This document shows, in pieces, positions 2,640 to 13,235 of a DNA stretch of 22,794 nucleotides (positions are counted from its first letter, which is position 1; each line of letters opens with the position of its first letter). This DNA comes from a virus. The stretch spans positions 1 to 22,794 of IMG/VR virus record IMGVR_UViG_3300047300_001079; one strand, given 5' to 3'. The notes beneath the pieces are model-generated. The model saw only the letters and a program-made list of their open reading frames with translations, was not told the DNA's origin and did no database searches. The translations under genes and the position numbers were made by a program.

Positions 2640-3619
2640 AAAAAGCATTTTTTATTAATGGCGGAATAGGTCGTGTATTATGCGCCATCCCAGCCTTAGA
2701 GCACTATGTACAAAATGTAGATGCTGACGCAGTAATAGTTGTGGAGGCATGGTTAGATTTATTCTTACTTAGTCCTATCTTAAAAGATAATGTTTATCCA
2801 GTAAACCATAAAGGCTTATTTAAAGATAAATTACGAGATAAAAATCTGATTAGTTTAGAACCTTATCGATTAAATGCTTATTTCAATCAAAAAGCTAACT
2901 TAATTCAAGCTTTTGATATGCTAGTAAATGATTTAACAGAAGTGCCGGAGACTAAACCACTGTCTATTTCTGTTGGTAAATCTGATGAAATTGTTGGGTT
3001 TAACTTGCTTAACCAAATTCGTGCTGAACTTGGAAAAGAGAAAGTAATAGTATTTCAACCTTTTGGCAGCGGTGCTAAATTAGATGGAAATATTATTATT
3101 GACGAAAGTGGTCGTAGTTTTGAACTAAAAGACACAGTAGAAATTATTGAAGAACTCAGCAAAGATTACTGCGTTGTAGTTATGTCAAGTATTAAAATAC
3201 CTTATACTTTTAGTACAAGAGTAGCACATCCTGAAAATGTTAGTTTGTTACAGTGGACAGGTATTATTGATGCTTGCGATTATTTCTTAGGGTGTGATAG
3301 TGTTGGACAACACTATGCCAATGCCTTGGGTAAAAAAGCCACAGTTGTAATTGGAGCCACCTTTCCCGAAAATATCAGTTATCCCGATAACGAGAACTTT
3401 ACTATTATCGATAATGGTTTAGGATTACGAGAATATTCACCTATTCGTATTACTCAGGATATATTTACAGATCGCGCAAATGAATCACTTATGTTACTTA
3501 GCCAAGAAACCAAAGACTTAATTGTAGATACTGTTAAATCAGGAGCAGGACCCAGTAAGAAATTTACTCCTGTAACACAACAACAAACTCAGCAACAAAA
3601 TGCTTGTTGCGTTAAATAA
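2636..3619 (+). CDS. GT9 heptosyltransferase-like glycosyltransferase
   Basis: Resembles ADP-heptose:LPS heptosyltransferases (GT9, GT-B fold) in overall layout. The N-terminal glycine-rich GGIGRVLCAIPALE (residues 9-22) is the usual acceptor-side loop. A central FQPFGSGAK sits where GT9 enzymes have their nucleotide-domain entry, and the C-terminal CDSVGQHYANALGKKATVVIGATFPE matches the DSG-x-HxAxA-LG-P-x-VxLFG pattern of the donor site. The 327 aa are close to typical GT9 size. The last 15 residues are Gln-rich with CC near the end, an odd tail. Its ATG overlaps the upstream stop by 4 bp and its last base is shared with the next start. Adjacent ADP-heptose synthesis genes strongly suggest ADP-heptose as donor. 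The acceptor, host LPS or another molecule, is not known. Confidence 0.75.
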   Translation: MKKAFFINGGIGRVLCAIPALEHYVQNVDADAVIVVEAWLDLFLLSPILKDNVYPVNHKGLFKDKLRDKNLISLEPYRLNAYFNQKANLIQAFDMLVNDLTEVPETKPLSISVGKSDEIVGFNLLNQIRAELGKEKVIVFQPFGSGAKLDGNIIIDESGRSFELKDTVEIIEELSKDYCVVVMSSIKIPYTFSTRVAHPENVSLLQWTGIIDACDYFLGCDSVGQHYANALGKKATVVIGATFPENISYPDNENFTIIDNGLGLREYSPIRITQDIFTDRANESLMLLSQETKDLIVDTVKSGAGPSKKFTPVTQQQTQQQNACCVK

Positions 3620-4029
3620 TGAAAATATTTGTAAACGGCACTTTTGACGTCTTACATCCAGGCCACCTAGACTTGCTGAATTATGCAAAAAGTCTAGGTG
3701 ACTTTTTACTGGTGGCGATAGATTCGGACAGCCGAGTCGCCAGCAAAAAGGGAATGGATAGACCTTTTAATCCACAATATAACCGAATGAAGTTACTTGA
3801 AAACTTAAAAGCAGTTGATGAAGTAGTAATTTTTGATACGGATCAAGAACTAACACAAACAGTAAAAATACTTAGGCCTGACATAATGATTGTTGGGTCA
3901 GATTATAAAGATAAAACCGTAATTGGTTCGGAATATGCACGAGAACTTAGATTTTATAGCAGAACAACACCTCACTCAAGTACCCAAATACTGGAACATT
4001 TTATTGATCGGAGACGAATGTACGGATGA
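3619..4029 (+). CDS. rfaE2: Heptose-1-phosphate adenylyltransferase (HldE C-domain type)
   Basis: A 136-aa cytidylyltransferase-fold protein. It carries the nucleotide-binding GTFDVLHPGH at 7-16, the NRMKLLENL helix, and GSDYKDKTVIGSE, matching the KGGDYK...VxGxE signature of D-glycero-beta-D-manno-heptose 1-phosphate adenylyltransferase; the PHSSTQIL end matches the CSTT.II end of Escherichia coli HldE. In E. coli this is the C-terminal half of bifunctional HldE; here it is a separate gene placed before the kinase, as in organisms with split RfaE. The final 95 bp overlap the kinase gene in another frame. Predicted to form ADP-D-glycero-beta-D-manno-heptose in the cytoplasm. Confidence 0.88.
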   Translation: MKIFVNGTFDVLHPGHLDLLNYAKSLGDFLLVAIDSDSRVASKKGMDRPFNPQYNRMKLLENLKAVDEVVIFDTDQELTQTVKILRPDIMIVGSDYKDKTVIGSEYARELRFYSRTTPHSSTQILEHFIDRRRMYG

Positions 4030-4720
4030 GTACATTTATGGAACTATTGACCGACTAAGTCCAGAAGCACCTGTACCAGTATTTGTTCCACATAATAAAG
4101 AAACCAAGCGTGGAATGGCGGGTAATGTAGAAGAAAATTTACTTGCACTGGGTTGCAATGTTGCTACATTAAGTGGTGAAAAAAGTACAAAAACAAGATT
4201 TATTGATGCCAGGTCTAAACAACACATAATGCGGTTAGACCAAGATAAGCCTGCACAACCACTAATTTTAGAAACATTAATACCTCCAGTATACGATGCA
4301 GTAGTAGTCAGCGACTATAATAAAGGGCTAGTAACCTACGAGTTAGTAGAAACTATACTTAAACAATTTAACGGCCCAGTTTTTATTGATACAAAGAAAA
4401 CTGACTTGGCTAGGTTTAATGGAGCTTTTGTAAAAATCAATAGCCTAGAATACTCACTGGCTAAAACACTATCAGATAATCTAATTGTTACATTGGGTAA
4501 AGACGGTACCCGCTACAAGGATACGACATATCCTGCACCTCAAGTAGAGGTTGCCGATGTGTGTGGTGCCGGAGATACTTTTTTATCTGCACTGGTATAC
4601 GAGTATTTAAATACCAACAGTATTCCACAAGCAATTGAATTTGCCAATCGTGCAGCTTCTGTAACTGTAAAACACACAGGTGTTTATGCACCTAAACTGA
4701 AAGAAATAAATGCGGCTTGA
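3935..4720 (+). CDS. rfaE1: Minimal heptose-7-phosphate kinase (HldE N-domain type, PfkB)
   Basis: PfkB-family sugar kinase close to the N-terminal half of HldE. Visible landmarks are ILLIGDECTDEY, the RLSPEAPVPVF segment nearly identical to HldE's RISPEAPVPV, MAGNVEENLLALG, VVSDYNKG, IDTKKTD and the ATP-site GAGDTF near residue 212. It should phosphorylate D-glycero-D-manno-heptose 7-phosphate at C1. At 261 aa it is clearly shorter than the roughly 318-residue E. coli domain: between the LALG helix and TRFIDAR about 30 residues are missing, so the kinase is compacted. I prefer the ATG at 3935; a TTG four codons earlier (3923) is possible. Neither has a clear ribosome site, and translation may couple to the 95-bp overlapping adenylyltransferase gene. 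Confidence 0.85.
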   Translation: MHENLDFIAEQHLTQVPKYWNILLIGDECTDEYIYGTIDRLSPEAPVPVFVPHNKETKRGMAGNVEENLLALGCNVATLSGEKSTKTRFIDARSKQHIMRLDQDKPAQPLILETLIPPVYDAVVVSDYNKGLVTYELVETILKQFNGPVFIDTKKTDLARFNGAFVKINSLEYSLAKTLSDNLIVTLGKDGTRYKDTTYPAPQVEVADVCGAGDTFLSALVYEYLNTNSIPQAIEFANRAASVTVKHTGVYAPKLKEINAA

Positions 4721-5066: not shown

Positions 5067-5356
5067 AATACATTATAGACATTGATGGTACTATATGTAC
5101 CTTAACCAATGGCAATTATACCGATGCAGAACCCTACCTATATCGTATAAAACATTTTAATAATCTTTACAATGCTGGCAATGAGATTCACTACTGGACT
5201 GCTCGTGGTAGCAATAGTGGTAAAGATTGGCTAGAACTTACGCTCCAACAATTAAATGACTGGGGTGTTAAGTATACCACAGCGCAAACAGGTAAACCAG
5301 CCTACGACGTTTGGATTGATGACAAAGCCTTTAATGTAGGCACATATTTTAAATGA
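5063..5356 (+). CDS. Small HAD-superfamily phosphatase of sugar clusters
   Basis: A 97-aa HAD hydrolase without a cap domain. Motif I is DIDGT at 6-10 (nucleophile and acid/base Asp), motif II is the Thr in YWTARG, and the acidic end IDDKAFN gives motif IV. Similar 100-aa proteins occur in capsule/LPS loci and phages, and I recall some being labelled phosphoheptose-related because of their neighbours. It lacks the Cys/His zinc loop of true GmhB, so it is not a GmhB orthologue, but a phosphatase is exactly the activity needed between the kinase and adenylyltransferase steps (heptose-1,7-bisphosphate 7-phosphatase). Start and stop both show ATGA overlaps with neighbours. Confidence 0.78.
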   Translation: MKYIIDIDGTICTLTNGNYTDAEPYLYRIKHFNNLYNAGNEIHYWTARGSNSGKDWLELTLQQLNDWGVKYTTAQTGKPAYDVWIDDKAFNVGTYFK

Positions 5357-6135
5357 AAATTTTACTAACAGGACACTGTGGCTTTATTGGGCAAAATATG
5401 TTACAAGCCTTGCAGAATACTGACCATGAGATTAACACTTTTGAGTGGTCGGATGGAAATATGCCTAGCATTATGGAACAAGACTGGGTTATTCATATTG
5501 GAGCTATTAGTTCTACTACTGAACGTGACGTTGACAAAGTACTGCGTCAAAACTATGATTTTAGTAGGCAACTATTTATAGCTTGTAAAACCTATGGAGT
5601 AAATTTACAGTATTCTAGTTCAGCTAGTGTATACGGTCTTGGAACTGATTTTTGCGAAACAGCACCACCAGACCCACGTAATGCATATGCCTGGTCAAAG
5701 TACTTATTTGAACGCTATCACCAACAACATCAAGGCGGTAACATAGTACAAGGATTTCGATACTTTAATGTTTACGGTCCACACGAAGATCACAAAGGCT
5801 CACAAGCTAGCCCTTACCATCAGTTTGGTAAACAAGCCCGTGAAACTGGTAAGATAAAAGTATTTGAAAACAGCGATAAGTATCGCAGAGATTTTGTACC
5901 AGTTGAGCAGGTCATTGCTACTCATCTGGCTTTTTTAAACAGCAAAGAATCAGGAATATTTAACATTGGTACTGGTACTGCAAAAAGCTTCTTAGAAGTA
6001 GCCGAAACTTTTAGTGTACCCGTTGAAACTATACCAATGCCTGAGCAGTTGGCAGCAAGCTATCAAAAGTATACTTGTGCTGATATGACAAAAACCAATA
6101 AAATTTATGACTACTCTAAAAGAACTAACACATGA
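5353..6135 (+). CDS. hldD: ADP-heptose 6-epimerase-like SDR (HldD type)
   Basis: Extended short-chain dehydrogenase/reductase. The Rossmann loop is G7-x-x-G10-x-x-G13 (TGHCGFIG), the catalytic pair is Y112-x3-K116 in YAWSKYLFE with the SSSASVYG serine before it. Several stretches follow HldD rather than generic epimerases: ISSTTE, GFRYFNVYGP, HKGS.AS, KYRRDFV and GIFNIGTG. It would convert ADP-D-glycero- to ADP-L-glycero-beta-D-manno-heptose. At 260 aa it is about 50 residues shorter than E. coli HldD, with the loss at the C-terminus (last helices) where the gene overlaps the heme oxygenase start by 29 bp. Whether the shortened tail still allows oligomerisation is unknown. Confidence 0.88.
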   Translation: MKILLTGHCGFIGQNMLQALQNTDHEINTFEWSDGNMPSIMEQDWVIHIGAISSTTERDVDKVLRQNYDFSRQLFIACKTYGVNLQYSSSASVYGLGTDFCETAPPDPRNAYAWSKYLFERYHQQHQGGNIVQGFRYFNVYGPHEDHKGSQASPYHQFGKQARETGKIKVFENSDKYRRDFVPVEQVIATHLAFLNSKESGIFNIGTGTAKSFLEVAETFSVPVETIPMPEQLAASYQKYTCADMTKTNKIYDYSKRTNT

Positions 6136-6643
6136 ATCGCATGAGCGTGCAGAAGTTCACCCATTCACAAAATTAGTTTTATCAAAAAACATCAGCCCAG
6201 TAGTATACGCTGATTTTTTGTACAATCAACACGCTGTATACCACACACTTGAAAGTGTAGCTAATATTCGTGGATTGCTAGACGATTTACCAGGATTACG
6301 ACGCGCGCCACTAATTTGGCAGGACTTTGAGGAGTTACAGATTAGTGGGTGTAAACTGTATACAAGTACACACAAGTATATTCACTATCTTGTGTGTAAC
6401 TTATCTGACGAACAGATACTAGCACACTTGTATGTACGACATATGGGCGATATGTATGGTGGTCAGATGATTAAGCGCTGTGTTCCTGGCAGTGGTAGTA
6501 TGTACGAGTTTAAAAATCGTAAAGAGTTGATTGAAACTCTACGAAGTAAACTAGATACTTCTATGGCTTCGGAAGCAAACTATTGCTTTGATTGTGCTAT
6601 TCAATTATTTACGGAACTAGCCAATGAGCACAATATTCAATAA
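6107..6643 (+). CDS. ho1: Heme oxygenase (HO-1 type)
   Basis: Predicted to open heme to biliverdin IXalpha, releasing CO and iron, using reduced ferredoxin. The proximal heme ligand is H12 in THESHERAE, matching the T..SH..AE motif of cyanobacterial and mammalian HO. The flexible distal helix is G114-DMYGGQ-120, preceded by YVRH, matching Y.RY.GD.SGGQ. At 178 aa it is shorter than the roughly 240-aa cyanobacterial enzymes, mainly at the C-terminus. It overlaps the epimerase by 29 bp and the bilin reductase by 20 bp, so the three genes are co-transcribed. The adjacent reductase indicates a bilin-making rather than an iron-scavenging role. Phage heme oxygenases are known from cyanophages and uncultured marine phages. 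Confidence 0.93.
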   Translation: MTTLKELTHESHERAEVHPFTKLVLSKNISPVVYADFLYNQHAVYHTLESVANIRGLLDDLPGLRRAPLIWQDFEELQISGCKLYTSTHKYIHYLVCNLSDEQILAHLYVRHMGDMYGGQMIKRCVPGSGSMYEFKNRKELIETLRSKLDTSMASEANYCFDCAIQLFTELANEHNIQ

Positions 6644-7325
6644 ACTAAAAGCTCATGCAGCAGAATTGGAAGCAATTTTAGCTGCGCGGGCTTTTTCTTC
6701 GCCTTCAGAAATCACCTCAGAATGGTACACCCGAAACTTTAGTAACTGTTGGTTCCGACGTGGTAACTTAGATGTTATTGACGTATCGGAATCTAAAAAG
6801 TTGTATATGATGCACCTGTGTGTATTTCCACATACATATGATGCAGCACCTATTTATGGGTTTGATATTGTAGCCGGCACAAATAAAATCACAGGGGCTT
6901 TTTTAGATTTTAGTCCTGTAGGTGATCCAGAGCATCCAATGTGCAAGTGGTTTCAAGAATTAGTAGAACCCACCGAATGGGCTAAACCACGTGAACTACC
7001 TGAATGGGCTCGTAATATATTTTCTAACCGCATGGTTGCTGCAGGTAATATTAACACAGACTTTGAACTAAGTGTTATCTTAGAAATAAGCAAGAAGTCA
7101 CTTATTTATTACTTGGACAACTTAAAACACCATCGTCCAGCATTAAAGTACGAAGATATGGTAGCACAACATAATTTTACTGAAAAGCAAAATTATTACT
7201 GTCAGCAACAAAAATGTAACCCACATACTCCCAGAGTATTAAAATCACTAGGATTCAATGATGATCAAGTCCATGAGTACATACATAAAGAACTGTTTCC
7301 TGAAATACGAACAACAGTGGATTGA
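6624..7325 (+). CDS. pcyX: Ferredoxin-dependent bilin reductase (PcyX/PcyA lineage)
   Basis: Reduces biliverdin to a phycobilin. The core PIYGFDIVAG followed by ITGAFLDFSP is the family signature. By hand alignment D81 equals the essential Asp105 of PcyA/PebS and H64 equals PcyA His88 (both 17 residues apart). The C-terminal YYCQQQKCNPHTPRVL matches the YxxQQ..N..T.RVL helix of PcyA, with N199 at the position of PebS Asp206. No Glu aligns without gaps to PcyA Glu76 (I52 there; D50 and D53 are near), which would fit a phage PcyX making phycoerythrobilin rather than a classical PcyA making phycocyanobilin, but this is inference. The 233 aa are typical for phage enzymes. The start overlaps the heme oxygenase end; no strong ribosome site, so coupling is likely. 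Confidence 0.92.
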   Translation: MSTIFNKLKAHAAELEAILAARAFSSPSEITSEWYTRNFSNCWFRRGNLDVIDVSESKKLYMMHLCVFPHTYDAAPIYGFDIVAGTNKITGAFLDFSPVGDPEHPMCKWFQELVEPTEWAKPRELPEWARNIFSNRMVAAGNINTDFELSVILEISKKSLIYYLDNLKHHRPALKYEDMVAQHNFTEKQNYYCQQQKCNPHTPRVLKSLGFNDDQVHEYIHKELFPEIRTTVD

Positions 7326-7355
7326 TTATTGGTATCACTATGGAGGACCAAAGTA

Positions 7356-7775
7356 ATGTGGATACTACAATTTTTACCCAATTGGTTATTTTATATAATT
7401 CTGTTCGGTGGTGTAATAGGATTTTTAGTTACACACTTTATTAAAGTAATACCTCAAGCAGAATTAATTCAAGTTGCAAGTGCTGTAGCAATTATTGCTA
7501 GCGTTTACATGATAGGTGCTATAAGCAACAATGATGCTTGGTTGTTACGAGTCAAAGAATTAGAAACAAAAGTTGCACAAGCAGAAGCACAAAGTGCTGA
7601 ACTCAATACTAAGATTGTTGAAGTTAGTGCTGCAAAAACTCAAGTAGTTCGTGAGCGTGGTCGTGATATAGTCAAATATGTGGATCGTGAAGTAGTCAAG
7701 TTTGATACTACTTGTGTGATACCCAAAGAATTTGTAACCGCACATAATCGTGCAGCAGAGGCACCAAAGAAATGA
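7356..7775 (+). CDS. Probable inner-membrane spanin (Rz-like)
   Basis: Start set at ATG 7356 because GGAGG lies at 7342-7346; an in-frame TTG at 7329 lacks such a site. The 139-aa product has two N-terminal hydrophobic segments (about 8-28 and 37-56), a charged coiled-coil-like stretch at about 62-100 and a periplasmic tail with CVIPKEFV.AHN, an ending seen in many phage Rz-like proteins. The next gene is a small lipoprotein overlapping by 4 bp and then an endolysin, the standard order of i-spanin, o-spanin and lysin. Two membrane segments rather than one are unusual for an i-spanin, so a holin-spanin fusion or holin role is possible. Confidence 0.72.
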   Translation: MWILQFLPNWLFYIILFGGVIGFLVTHFIKVIPQAELIQVASAVAIIASVYMIGAISNNDAWLLRVKELETKVAQAEAQSAELNTKIVEVSAAKTQVVRERGRDIVKYVDREVVKFDTTCVIPKEFVTAHNRAAEAPKK

Positions 7776-8038
7776 AACTGTTAGCATTAACATTAACTTT
7801 AGCGTTAACGGGTTGCTCAACAACTGTTCCAGTTACAGCAAAATTTCCACAAGCACCAGGTACACTAGTACAAGAGTCTTGTCCTAACTTACAAAAACTG
7901 GAAGAGTCTACTAAACTGTCGGATGTGGCAAAAACCGTAACTGTTAATTATTCAGAATATTACTTGTGTGCAGTTAAGTTAGAAGCCTGGCAACGCTGGT
8001 ATCGTGAACAAAAAACCATCTATGAAAGCGTAAAATAA
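7772..8038 (+). CDS. Outer-membrane spanin lipoprotein (Rz1-like)
   Basis: An 88-aa lipoprotein: a short hydrophobic signal ending in lipobox LTGC with lipidated Cys15, giving a mature protein of 74 residues. The C-terminal WYREQKTIYESVK is typical of small phage lysis lipoproteins as I remember them. It overlaps the putative i-spanin by an ATGA junction and the endolysin start by one base, supporting a spanin pair that would fuse inner and outer membranes at lysis. The presence of a lipoprotein spanin argues for a Gram-negative host. Confidence 0.78.
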   Translation: MKLLALTLTLALTGCSTTVPVTAKFPQAPGTLVQESCPNLQKLEESTKLSDVAKTVTVNYSEYYLCAVKLEAWQRWYREQKTIYESVK

Positions 8039-8652
8039 TGGAACTAAAAATCGAGCAACTAAAACAAATTGTCGATAAAAATCCTTATATTGAACACTGG
8101 CATCATGCGCTGGTGCAGCTACTACCAGACTATGAGATTAATACCCCCGCACGTATGGCGGCTTTTTTAGCGCAATGTGCACATGAGTCAGGTGGATTTC
8201 GTGCAATCAAAGAAAACTTAAATTATCGTGCAGCTAGCCTACGCAAAACATTTGGCAAATATTTTCCTACTGATGAAATTGCACAGCAATATGCAAATAA
8301 ACCAGAAAAGATTGCAAACCGAGTTTACGCTAACCGCATGGGTAATGGTGACGAAGCATCAGGCGATGGGTATCGATACTGTGGGCGTGGATTGATTCAA
8401 CTAACTGGCAAAGACAATTATTTTTGGTTTGCTGCTAGTTTGAACTTAACACCAGAACAAGCTTCAGACTATATGGAAACATTTGAAGGTGCGGCACAGT
8501 CGGCGTGCTGGTTTTGGGAAACAAACAATTTAAATCAATGGGCAGATAAAGGCGATATCTTGACCCTAACCAAACGTATCAATGGTGGTACAATTGGACT
8601 AGAAGATCGTAAAAAGCATTATGAACATGCTTTACACATTTTTGGCGGCTAA
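8038..8652 (+). CDS. GH19 chitinase-like endolysin
   Basis: A 204-aa peptidoglycan hydrolase of the lysozyme/GH19 class. The catalytic Glu candidates are E50 in AQCAHESGGF and E59 in IKENLNY. The substrate-groove signature is YANRMGN followed by GYRYCGRGLIQLTG, ending about residue 124, and a late RINGGTIGL motif follows. No signal peptide or membrane anchor is visible, so export should depend on a holin. The start codon overlaps the upstream TAA by one base. Downstream, and in the same frame after the stop, is a 43-aa ORF. Confidence 0.93.
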   Translation: MELKIEQLKQIVDKNPYIEHWHHALVQLLPDYEINTPARMAAFLAQCAHESGGFRAIKENLNYRAASLRKTFGKYFPTDEIAQQYANKPEKIANRVYANRMGNGDEASGDGYRYCGRGLIQLTGKDNYFWFAASLNLTPEQASDYMETFEGAAQSACWFWETNNLNQWADKGDILTLTKRINGGTIGLEDRKKHYEHALHIFGG

Positions 8653-9436: not shown

Positions 9437-9721
9437 ATGCACAATGATTTAAAGCTGTTTAAATGGGCAGCAATATTATTAGTATTACCATTAGCATTAG
9501 GATTTTGTGGCAAAGAAAGCTTTCGCTATCCTTGTCAAGATCCTGCAAATTGGGACAAAGACTTCTGTAAACCACCTATATGCGATGTTACAAGAACTTG
9601 CCCAGAACATATATTTAAAGGCCAGCGAGATCCAAGACTTGGCCCTCCAGCAACCAGAACAGAACCTATGGTAACGCCGCAATGTACAACACCAACACAA
9701 GGAGCTAATTGTGGAAAGTAA
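9437..9721 (+). CDS. Small exported cysteine-rich protein
   Basis: A 94-aa product with a hydrophobic N-terminus (about 9-23) ending in LGFC, which resembles but does not satisfy a lipobox because the residue before Cys is Phe. The mature part holds six Cys, with PCQDPANWDKDFCKPPIC and TRTCPEHIF motifs, and a Pro/Thr-rich end. Likely periplasmic or membrane-anchored with disulfides. I recall similar proteins in cyanophage and other marine phage genomes but no function. It overlaps the next gene by 11 bp. Confidence 0.72.
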   Translation: MHNDLKLFKWAAILLVLPLALGFCGKESFRYPCQDPANWDKDFCKPPICDVTRTCPEHIFKGQRDPRLGPPATRTEPMVTPQCTTPTQGANCGK

Positions 9722-10172
9722 CACAATTATTTATACTGAAGATCAGCTAATGGCGCGCCTGAAATTTTTTATTGGCATTTGTCTTGCGCTTACCTTAACT
9801 GGAATCGTATTCGTAGTATTATATTCAATTATTTTTATTACACAGCCATTAAACGCTATTAGCCCAATCGATCAAAAGTTTTTTGAAATGATTATTCCAA
9901 TTGCTACCTTTTTAACAGGTACGCTAAGCGGAATTATGTTAGCAGGCGGTAGCAAAGAAGAAATGGAAATGAAGCGCGATATGATTAAACAAGCGCAAGA
10001 AAATTCAAATACTTATGCCAAAGCTAATCCTGTTAAAATAGAGCCACAGTTTACAAGCCCAATTCAGACAACTGCTGGATTTAATGGAACTAGTGCAGCG
10101 CCTAGTACTCCTGGAATTACTTATATTAACGGCAAACCTGCTCCAGTACAAGCACCACATCCGGAGATCTAA
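9711..10172 (+). CDS. Two-segment membrane protein, GTG start
   Basis: A 153-aa protein starting at GTG 9711, chosen because AAGGAG sits at 9699-9704. Two hydrophobic segments at about 18-43 and 61-80 are joined by a short loop containing SPIDQKFFE; then comes a charged KEEMEMKRD helix and a Pro/Thr/Gly-rich C-terminal tail of about 60 residues. The loop motif IDQK-x-F-[DE] recurs in the next gene. A holin-like or membrane-organising role is possible; no named family recognised. Confidence 0.75.
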   Translation: MESNTIIYTEDQLMARLKFFIGICLALTLTGIVFVVLYSIIFITQPLNAISPIDQKFFEMIIPIATFLTGTLSGIMLAGGSKEEMEMKRDMIKQAQENSNTYAKANPVKIEPQFTSPIQTTAGFNGTSAAPSTPGITYINGKPAPVQAPHPEI

Positions 10173-10605: not shown

Positions 10606-10634
10606 TTGACAGACATATGCAGGTCTGCTATAAT
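10606..10634 (+). promoter_or_regulatory. Perfect consensus sigma-70 promoter for phoH
   Basis: TTGACA (10606-10611) and TATAAT (10629-10634) are exact consensus hexamers with exactly 17 bp between them. The predicted start is about 10641, giving a leader of some 35 nt with AAGGA before the phoH ATG at 10677. The -10 box lies between the arms of an inverted repeat (10622-10649). Confidence 0.9.
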
Positions 10635-11729: not shown

Positions 11730-11736
11730 AAGAAAA

Positions 11737-11760
11737 GCCCGCTATAGCAATATAGCGGGC
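11737..11760. terminator. Strong bidirectional intrinsic terminator
   Basis: GCCCGCTATA (11737-11746) pairs perfectly with TATAGCGGGC (11751-11760) around a GCAA loop. T6 follows on the plus side and an A-rich run (AAAAGAAAA) precedes it, so it should work in both directions. It separates the two convergent gene blocks. Confidence 0.95.
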
Positions 11761-11769
11761 TTTTTTGTT

Positions 11770-12192: not shown

Positions 12193-12747
12193 TTAACTAA
12201 TTTTAGTCATTGTAACTTTTAAACTACTGCCTGTGGGTCTTGTAGGGTTTACGCCAGCAGGCAATGCACTGAGATTGACTGTTGTATCAGCACTAGACCA
12301 ACAGAATTGTAAATTGCTATTAGCAGCCATATTTAGAGTAAAATTGCCGCTTGTAAATATTATTGATAAGGTATTTATTAGTTCTAGGTCCTGCCTAGAT
12401 CCCGGCACGTCTACACCATTGTACCGTAACCAAATACTCATTGAACTAGTACCGCCACTAGTTTTTGCCATTGTGGTAGTAAATAGCACCGTGTATACAC
12501 CAGCATTAGTTACTCTAAGAGTATTACCGCCTACTAAACTAACGCCATTATTTGGTCCTATAGTACTAAATGTACCTATATTGACTTGATTTGCAACTGG
12601 ATTTGTTTGTGTACCATTACTATAAAAACCATAGTTTAAAACTAATCCTGACGAAGCACTAACTACGCCGTCTACAGCAGTTAAACCACTACCAACTTTC
12701 ATTACACCATAATCTGAAGTTGAGGCTAAAGGTTGATTGTAGCTCAT
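12193..12747 (-). CDS. C1q/TNF-like jelly-roll appendage protein
   Basis: Start placed at ATG 12747, in an ATGA overlap with the upstream stop; an in-frame ATG at 12759 would add four residues, but alignment of MSYNQPLAST with the paralogue's MAFNSPLAST favours 12747. The 184-aa product has the shared YGVMKVGSG N-terminal module and then a C1q/TNF-like beta-sandwich: the GVYTVLFTTTMAKTSGGTSSMS and IWLRYNG stretches resemble the F-x-x-G-x-Y-x-F core of C1q domains, and a late NSNLQFCW strand follows. In phages and spores such domains trimerise at fibre tips, often after collagen-like stalks; here the collagen stalk is in the adjacent gene. Confidence 0.65.
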   Translation of the reverse strand: MSYNQPLASTSDYGVMKVGSGLTAVDGVVSASSGLVLNYGFYSNGTQTNPVANQVNIGTFSTIGPNNGVSLVGGNTLRVTNAGVYTVLFTTTMAKTSGGTSSMSIWLRYNGVDVPGSRQDLELINTLSIIFTSGNFTLNMAANSNLQFCWSSADTTVNLSALPAGVNPTRPTGSSLKVTMTKIS

Positions 12748-13235
12748 ACCACATTCCATTCTATACCATTGTAAATTAAACTAATTGAGCCCCAATCTGT
12801 GTTTAATATATAACTTGTCTGCCCATCAATAGTTGATCCAGTAGTTACCACAGTAATCGGATTCGTGTTAGCATCTCCAACAGCATCCTTGACAACATAA
12901 ACTTTGCCGACAGTACCCGCAGGTAAAGTAATCGTAACTGAGCCATCATAAATAACGCCTAAATAATATTCTGTTGCTCCAGGACTATAAGTTGCTTCAT
13001 CTATTAGTGTAACAGGTACATCTGCCAAACTACCTGGCTCACCTTGTGGCCCTTGTGGTCCTGGTGGTCCTGATGGTCCTGGTGGTCCTGGTGGTCCAAT
13101 TACATTGCTATTTATAAATAAGTCTCGATCATCTACTATAGGAGGACATCCTCCGGGTACATAAGGTGAAGGCAGTGCCGGAGGTATAAATGGAGCCATA
13201 GGCCAACCAAATGGCAAGCTTTGCCGTTGATCCAT
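12744..13235 (-). CDS. Collagen-like appendage protein
   Basis: A 163-aa protein in three parts: a Pro-rich N-terminus (residues 7-33), seven uninterrupted Gly-X-Y triplets at 47-67, rich in GPP and GPQ, and a C-terminal beta module (from YYLGVIYDG to GIEWNVV) shared with the 135-aa protein at 11770-12177. Collagen-like triplets form trimeric stalks in many phage fibres. Start at 13235 has AAGGA upstream (AAGGAATAAAT then ATG). It is followed by the C1q-like gene with an ATGA overlap. Confidence 0.82.
   Translation of the reverse strand: MDQRQSLPFGWPMAPFIPPALPSPYVPGGCPPIVDDRDLFINSNVIGPPGPPGPSGPPGPQGPQGEPGSLADVPVTLIDEATYSPGATEYYLGVIYDGSVTITLPAGTVGKVYVVKDAVGDANTNPITVVTTGSTIDGQTSYILNTDWGSISLIYNGIEWNVV
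13035..13097 (-). repeat. Gly-X-Y collagen-like triplet repeat, 7 units
   Basis: Seven in-frame triplets (three GPP, then GPS, two GPQ and GEP types) encoded by near-repeated 9-bp GGTCCTGGT-type units on the plus strand. Such DNA is prone to gain or loss of units, which would vary stalk length. Confidence 0.9.

Follow-up and report, generated by a model that had tools for sequence, protein, structure and literature searches.

A heme oxygenase and PcyX-type bilin reductase gene pair beside the lysis genes of a phage assigned to a T5-like lineage

The window, i.e. the whole stretch of DNA analysed here, is a complete virus record of 22,794 bases that is itself a genome fragment. At 6107–7325, two overlapping genes are predicted to encode a heme oxygenase (HO) and a ferredoxin-dependent bilin reductase (FDBR). 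A preliminary description had placed this pair between heptose genes and a lysis module, and this arrangement was borne out: both ORFs were recovered with family and fold matches, ADP-heptose genes lie upstream, and spanins and an endolysin lie downstream. The features of the plus-strand block holding the pair are as follows:

3619–4029, plus strand: heptose 1-phosphate adenylyltransferase-like gene (HldE domain II; TIGR02199, phrog_7878)
3923–4720, plus strand: shortened heptose 7-phosphate kinase-like gene (HldE domain I; TIGR02198, 140.9 bits in three pieces; PF00294)
5353–6135, plus strand: ADP-glyceromanno-heptose 6-epimerase-like gene (HldD; TIGR02197, 218 bits, below the model's strict cut-off of 274.6; PF01370)
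6107–6643, plus strand: HO, 178 aa (PF01126, 58.7 bits, cut-off 23)
6624–6643, plus strand: 20-bp overlap of the HO and FDBR reading frames, near the HO exchange point of loci L002 and L019
6624–7325, plus strand: PcyX-type FDBR, 233 aa (PF05996, 73.6 bits, cut-off 31)
7329–8038, plus strand: spanin pair (Rz/Rz1-like; phrog_2536, phrog_456), 4 bp past the stop codon of FDBR, assuming the listed TTG as start
8038–8652, plus strand: endolysin (phrog_181, 260.9 bits)
11731–11766, unstranded: bidirectional terminator-like hairpin (16-pair stem, T tails on both strands), closing the plus-strand block

The ADP-heptose pathway upstream of the pair also shows a PHROG match to a phosphoheptose isomerase, and the upstream genes include a cupin, a carbamoyltransferase, a 2OG-Fe(II) oxygenase and a phosphatase-like gene. 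Between 3619 and 4720, HldE is split over two genes with its domain order reversed and a kinase part of about 244–265 aa, an arrangement that looks like a compact phage version of the enzyme. A PhoH gene follows the spanins and endolysin. Just upstream of phoH lies a perfect sigma-70 consensus (10606–10634; TTGACA, 17 nt, TATAAT, the second hexamer being preceded by TG), the sole 12/12 match in the first 12 kb; promoter-like sites as a whole were no more numerous than expected by chance. Terminator-like sites were likewise near chance overall, and the call at 11731–11766 is based on stem length and position. Past this hairpin, the minus-strand block encodes tail-like proteins, a class II ribonucleotide reductase, a dUTPase, an exonuclease, gp46/gp47-like genes and ssb. 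A protein with a collagen-like Gly-Pro-Pro run (12744–13235) sits beside two related-looking minus-strand proteins and is probably tail-associated.

The HO is shorter than its solved homologues, and its gene shares 29 bp with the upstream epimerase gene (stop at 6135). Its AlphaFold2 model is confident (pLDDT 96.2), with HmuO and HO-1/2 as the best structural matches in Foldseek. The protein has the all-helical fold, proximal His (His12) and distal-helix Asp and Gly residues (Asp115, Gly118-Gly119) of a canonical HO of the HO-1/HmuO type; His12 is kept in 136/136 HO relatives and Asp115 in 141/141. A distant HO, 26 % identical, is encoded at 96743–97348 of MH319754.1, the single-cell-amplified marine virus AG-345-L05.

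For the reductase, a sequence search of the PDB returned PcyX 5owg as the best solved relative (E value 6.9e-53, 182.8 bits, residues 33–228), with matches to PcyA at an E value of about 1e-12 (1.5e-12). The AlphaFold model (pLDDT 88.3) matched the structures of PcyA, PcyX 5owg, PebA, PebB and PebS. Asp50 corresponds to PcyX Asp55, His64 to PcyX His69/PcyA His88 and Asp81 to PcyX Asp86/PcyA Asp105, and Asn199 was also located; Asp55 and Asp86 were mapped on 5owg by counting residues and assuming that a tag shifts the numbering by 8, an offset that agrees with both positions. Asp55 has been named the PcyX-specific catalytic Asp (PMC11480375). The equivalent residue is Asp in 143/143 viral or metagenome-assembled genome (MAG) sequences, PcyA from cyanobacteria or cyanophages has Glu in 11/11 cases, and this site lies outside the patterns used in our scans. 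The Asp86 equivalent is kept in 142/142 relatives and the His69 equivalent in 143/143; as the scan patterns covered the catalytic His and the C-terminal Asn-Pro-His motif, conservation at those positions is partly a product of selection by the scan. The window differs from characterised PcyX and PcyA at the position of PcyA His74, where it encodes Asn48. Asn is found here in 53 rows of the alignment (the window and 52 others) and His in 105, including 5owg and Synechocystis PcyA (2d1e). His74 and His88 of PcyA are bridged by a water molecule (PMC9800206), and the replacement of this bridging residue means that the rate or product of the reaction could differ.

In a 69-row FDBR tree, the viral FDBRs and 5owg split from cyanobacterial and cyanophage PcyA at 100/100. 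Within the viral group, 5owg groups with the pelagimyophage Mosig, and the window belongs to a different subclade, that of the T5-like phages. These T5-like rows cluster as a single clade (100/100) nested in a larger, supported group, in which the remaining labelled rows have T4 neck genes. The tree was rooted on cyanobacterial PcyA, has a long root branch, was built from rows other than the bacterial AX-clade PcyA and leaves the deepest branching unsettled. Under this root, one transfer of the HO–FDBR pair into the T5-like lineage is the simplest reading, and probably the correct one. The reductase therefore sits with characterised PcyX and apart from cyanobacterial and cyanophage PcyA, PebS being only a remote relative with different catalytic residues, and the equivalents of Asp55, Asp86 and His69 are all present. 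The PcyX-type assignment made in the preliminary description is thus supported by sequence match, phylogeny and active-site residues alike.

An initial scan of IMG/VR yielded 61 loci and a profile-based scan at least 568 viral stretches encoding relatives. HO lies beside FDBR on the same strand in 140/140 assessable loci, as in the window, where the adjacent, co-directional genes constitute a two-gene hemO-pcyX viral cassette; the three FDBR loci without HO are all cut at a contig end. HO and FDBR are also the only genes common to all 59 neighbourhood representatives. Median dN/dS values of 0.080 and 0.098 for the two genes (pairs with HO >70 % identity) indicate purifying selection, with synonymous sites near saturation in many pairs. 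An initial dN/dS comparison suggested much stronger constraint on the reductase than on HO; this claim was dropped because the HO tree revealed that some HO genes had been replaced and the restricted medians were similar. As both genes are under purifying selection and co-occur in every relative that shows both, a chance origin of the pair is excluded.

In the HO tree (a quick method with midpoint rooting), 26 of the 28 T5-like rows fall together, with Mosig and two MAG rows beside them on long branches. The two relatives L002 and L019 have a different HO. The HO of L002 is 68 % identical to that of L038 and 55 % to that of the window, whereas its FDBR is 54 % identical to that of L038 and 89 % to that of the window. 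The HO genes of both loci (9490–10020 in each) have thus been replaced, with an exchange point near the HO/FDBR overlap, which shows that HO can be exchanged while the reductase stays in place.

Two longer genomes, G002 and G005, match the window collinearly and at high identity (NrdJ 97 % and 86 %, respectively). G002, at about 99.6–99.7 kb, carries a 105-bp direct terminal repeat and hence reads as a circularly closed assembly. In the 128-kb G005, the terminase, portal and capsid genes find their nearest named relatives in Vibrio phages of about 113–128 kb (terminase up to 49.7 %, capsid 35.7 %), which we take to be T5-like. A G005-type capsid was detected in 11 of 48 IMG/VR records, G005 included, and a T4 gp23 capsid in one of the 48, as well as in Mosig. 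We assign the window, which has no capsid gene of its own, to the T5-like lineage by way of these collinear genomes. A T4-like identity, considered on account of the gp46/gp47/ssb-like genes, was rejected, as the nearest gp46 sequences belong to Vibrio phages of the T5-like size class and the structural genes of the collinear genomes are T5-like. In many other carriers, FDBR is immediately followed by T4-type neck genes, as in Mosig. In locus L168 (1116–5131), genes for Hsp70, Hsp20 and ClpS directly precede HO-PcyX, and similar genes are present in L140 and L160, which puts the pair beside proteostasis genes in this context. Across relatives, HO, FDBR and the lysis genes keep their order, whereas the heptose and other glycan genes vary. 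Beyond the preliminary description, therefore, the T5-like lineage is added and the heptose genes emerge as a variable neighbour of a constant HO–FDBR pair. No description of a T5-like carrier clade was found in the literature searched (subscription papers and preprints lay outside it), and we do not claim priority.

The pair was also sought in bacteria. A profile scan of 84,980 bacterial and archaeal species genomes returned no relative, and a second scan of these genomes with broader patterns returned ten cyanobacterial PcyA genes and three PcyX-like genes; both scans depend on short conserved patterns, such that divergent genes could be missed. The three PcyX-like genes (L166, L167 and L168) lie on contigs of 3.3, 6.9 and 7.7 kb from MAGs of Bacteroidota, Planctomycetota and Bacillota. 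L167 and L168 carry phage-family genes, and two neighbours in L166 have no phage-family match. Given these phage-family genes, the three contigs, from MAGs of unrelated phyla, are probably misbinned phage. This agrees with the literature, in which pcyX is not known from bacteria (PMC11480375).

We then considered what else the phages encode for bilin metabolism. Fer2 ferredoxins, a search suggested in the preliminary description, were absent from the window and 29 relatives and were recovered from Mosig and cyanophage P-SSM2. ALA synthase was not detected in the window or the 29 first relatives, G002 among them, and the three-gene hemO-pcyA/X-alaS cassette was not encountered there; the enzyme is present in 5 of 26 other PcyX records. 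An ALA synthase match in G048:C1:33178-34365 (L179) contains one in-frame TAA, which may reflect sequencing error, decay or recoding. Pfam scans of 51 G002 ORFs outside the shared region likewise gave no candidate for an electron donor, a chromophore-binding protein or an ALA synthase, and no such phage-encoded component was found in the lineage.

We consider it likely that the pair forms a two-step heme-catabolic unit. In the first step, judging from its fold and conserved catalytic residues, HO would open host heme to give biliverdin, Fe2+ and CO; since the closed relative lacks a plant-type ferredoxin, the electrons would come from host redox proteins. In the second, the PcyX-type reductase would take biliverdin four electrons down to a phycobilin, most likely phycoerythrobilin, as suggested by homology to PcyX and by Asp50, His64 and Asp81, with host ferredoxin as the assumed donor. 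The location of the pair directly upstream of the lysis cassette (here) or of the neck genes (T4-like carriers) points to late expression during infection; with promoter-like sites no more frequent than chance, it is gene order that suggests this timing.

As to the benefit, we tentatively favour late turnover of host heme, which would release iron and reshape the redox state of the dying cell, over a chromophore or signalling role. In general, removal of biliverdin is linked to HO turnover. By drawing off biliverdin, the reductase would keep HO from stalling and biliverdin from accumulating. A reductase would not be required for an iron role alone, however, and Asn48 replaces the His of characterised PcyX and PcyA, so that rate or product could differ from those assumed here. 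Iron-using 2OG-Fe(II) oxygenases recur near the HO–FDBR pair, but they are common in large aquatic phages and add little weight to an iron role. As for HxH iron-binding motifs in tail proteins, one G005 protein has five, but none of the proteins of the window or G002 reaches three.

Somewhat less probable, in our assessment, is that the phycobilin itself is the useful product, acting as a chromophore or ligand of a host phytochrome or bilin-binding globin and thereby changing host light or redox signalling. This would account for a reductase that accompanies HO in all assessable relatives and is under constraint no weaker than that on HO. The HO and PcyA of phage CB_2 can load a phytochrome in vivo (PMC11480375), and related pre-PcyA genes occur in non-photosynthetic bacteria (PMC10151467). 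However, no phytochrome PHY domain was detected in 48 related records or in Mosig, no receptor-like neighbour recurred among the neighbourhood representatives, and phages appear to make either phycoerythrobilin (PcyX) or phycocyanobilin (CB_2), which fits a loose product requirement. Phycobiliproteins were also absent from the 30 records searched, although the cyanophage controls lack them too, so this search does not discriminate.

It is also conceivable, if rather unlikely, that the reductase of the T5-like subclade makes another product owing to Asn48, either phycocyanobilin or a stalled two-electron 15,16-dihydrobiliverdin. The split between Asn and His rows and the place of His74 beside the PcyA water favour such a change, and CB_2 is an example of a viral relative with a different product (PMC11480375). 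Set against this, neither the PcyX-specific Asp nor the catalytic His and Asp have changed, and our literature search brought up no test of this substitution in PcyX. In a broader form, which we would regard as equally unlikely, the T5-like PcyX subclade is functionally shifted (a different bilin or rate) and the pair acts late during infection of Gram-negative hosts that are not photosynthetic, where it might strip heme for iron and redox control and possibly supply iron for virion proteins. If so, viral bilin synthesis in these phages would be unrelated to light harvesting. What phages of non-photosynthetic bacteria gain from making phycobilins is acknowledged as an open question in the literature (PMC11480375).

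That this is an ordinary cyanophage pair sustaining phycobilisomes during infection, like PebS/PcyA of marine cyanophages, is very improbable, even though the chemistry is the same as that of PebS and cyanophages carry FDBR genes. The preliminary description had noted no photosynthesis genes in the window, and none of the window proteins scanned matched any photosynthesis family. The absence extends further: PF00124 (psbA/psbD, pufL/M) was found in both cyanophage controls, P-SSM2 and P-SSM4, but in 0/55 related records and not in Mosig. Most of these records are fragments, and the strongest negative is G002, which is closed and collinear with the window. The FDBR shares only 25–30 % identity with cyanophage PcyA, a 100/100 branch divides the two, and the structural genes of the carriers are T5-like and nearest to those of Vibrio phages. 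The ADP-heptose genes would suit a host with heptose-containing LPS, which, to our knowledge, cyanobacteria generally lack. A cyanophage origin was rejected on the reaction-centre genes and the FDBR tree, and the absence of photosynthesis genes from the T5-like lineage makes light harvesting an unlikely purpose. The earlier suggestion of a phage that does not infect cyanobacteria is strengthened by the T5-like carriers and by the same pair in Mosig, a cultured SAR11 phage.

Finally, although phages in general can replicate without the pair, it is scarcely credible that it represents decaying cargo or an artefact of assembly or annotation; such readings are already contradicted by the intact frames across many independent contigs, the dN/dS of about 0.08–0.10, the invariant catalytic residues and the confident folds.

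The T5-like phages represent a second phage type carrying the pair, probably following one transfer after which it was kept; such a clade argues for a general benefit, one that depends neither on a particular host nor on photosynthesis. The conserved late-gene position, the exchangeable HO and the invariant reductase residues lead to predictions on timing, product and iron dependence, which could be tested in the cultured pelagiphage Mosig.

Among known systems, the closest characterised enzyme is PcyX (5owg, PcyX_EBK42635), reportedly described by Ledermann and colleagues as a phycoerythrobilin synthase from marine viral metagenomes. It shares the FDBR fold and the Asp55/His69/Asp86 equivalents with the window but has His at the PcyA His74 position, where the window has Asn48. 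Pelagibacter phage Mosig EXVC030M (host SAR11 HTCC1062) encodes an HO and an FDBR that are 39 % and 45 % identical to those of the window, in the same order, with an overlap and directly before late genes. Unlike the window lineage, Mosig is T4-like (gp23 capsid), has the pair upstream of neck genes and encodes a 2Fe-2S ferredoxin. A gene near its HO-PcyX pair (L063:8243-9013) is annotated as a putative ferrochelatase; it has no Pfam match, which makes the annotation doubtful.

Cyanophages P-SSM4 (PcyA) and P-SSM2 (PebS) also carry members of the FDBR superfamily. In contrast to the window lineage, both have photosystem genes; the window FDBR shares 25–30 % identity with cyanophage PcyA and is only remotely related to P-SSM2 PebS, which has Asn in place of the catalytic His. 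The PcyA found with hemO in Alphaproteobacteria (Bradyrhizobium ORS278) is sister to PcyX in the AX clade (PMC10151467); it is bacterial and linked to a phytochrome gene. Neither of the two genome scans retrieved an AX-clade bacterial sequence.

The hemO-pcyA/X-alaS cassettes of aquatic myophages and CB_2 (Nat Commun 2024, PMC11480375), known from marine and freshwater phages, share their first two genes with the window and differ from it in having alaS as a third. The CB_2 reductase lacks the PcyX Asp and makes phycocyanobilin, and the published carrier set was placed by gp13, a myovirus gene (PMC11480375). Earlier publications thus already cover PcyX itself, the pairing of PcyX with HO, its occurrence in phages from marine and fresh waters and the pelagiphage link (PMC11480375; PMC10151467). 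What our comparison appears to add is the T5-like carrier clade, the late-gene positions in both lineages, the replacement of HO alone and the change from His to Asn at the PcyA His74 position in the T5-like subclade.
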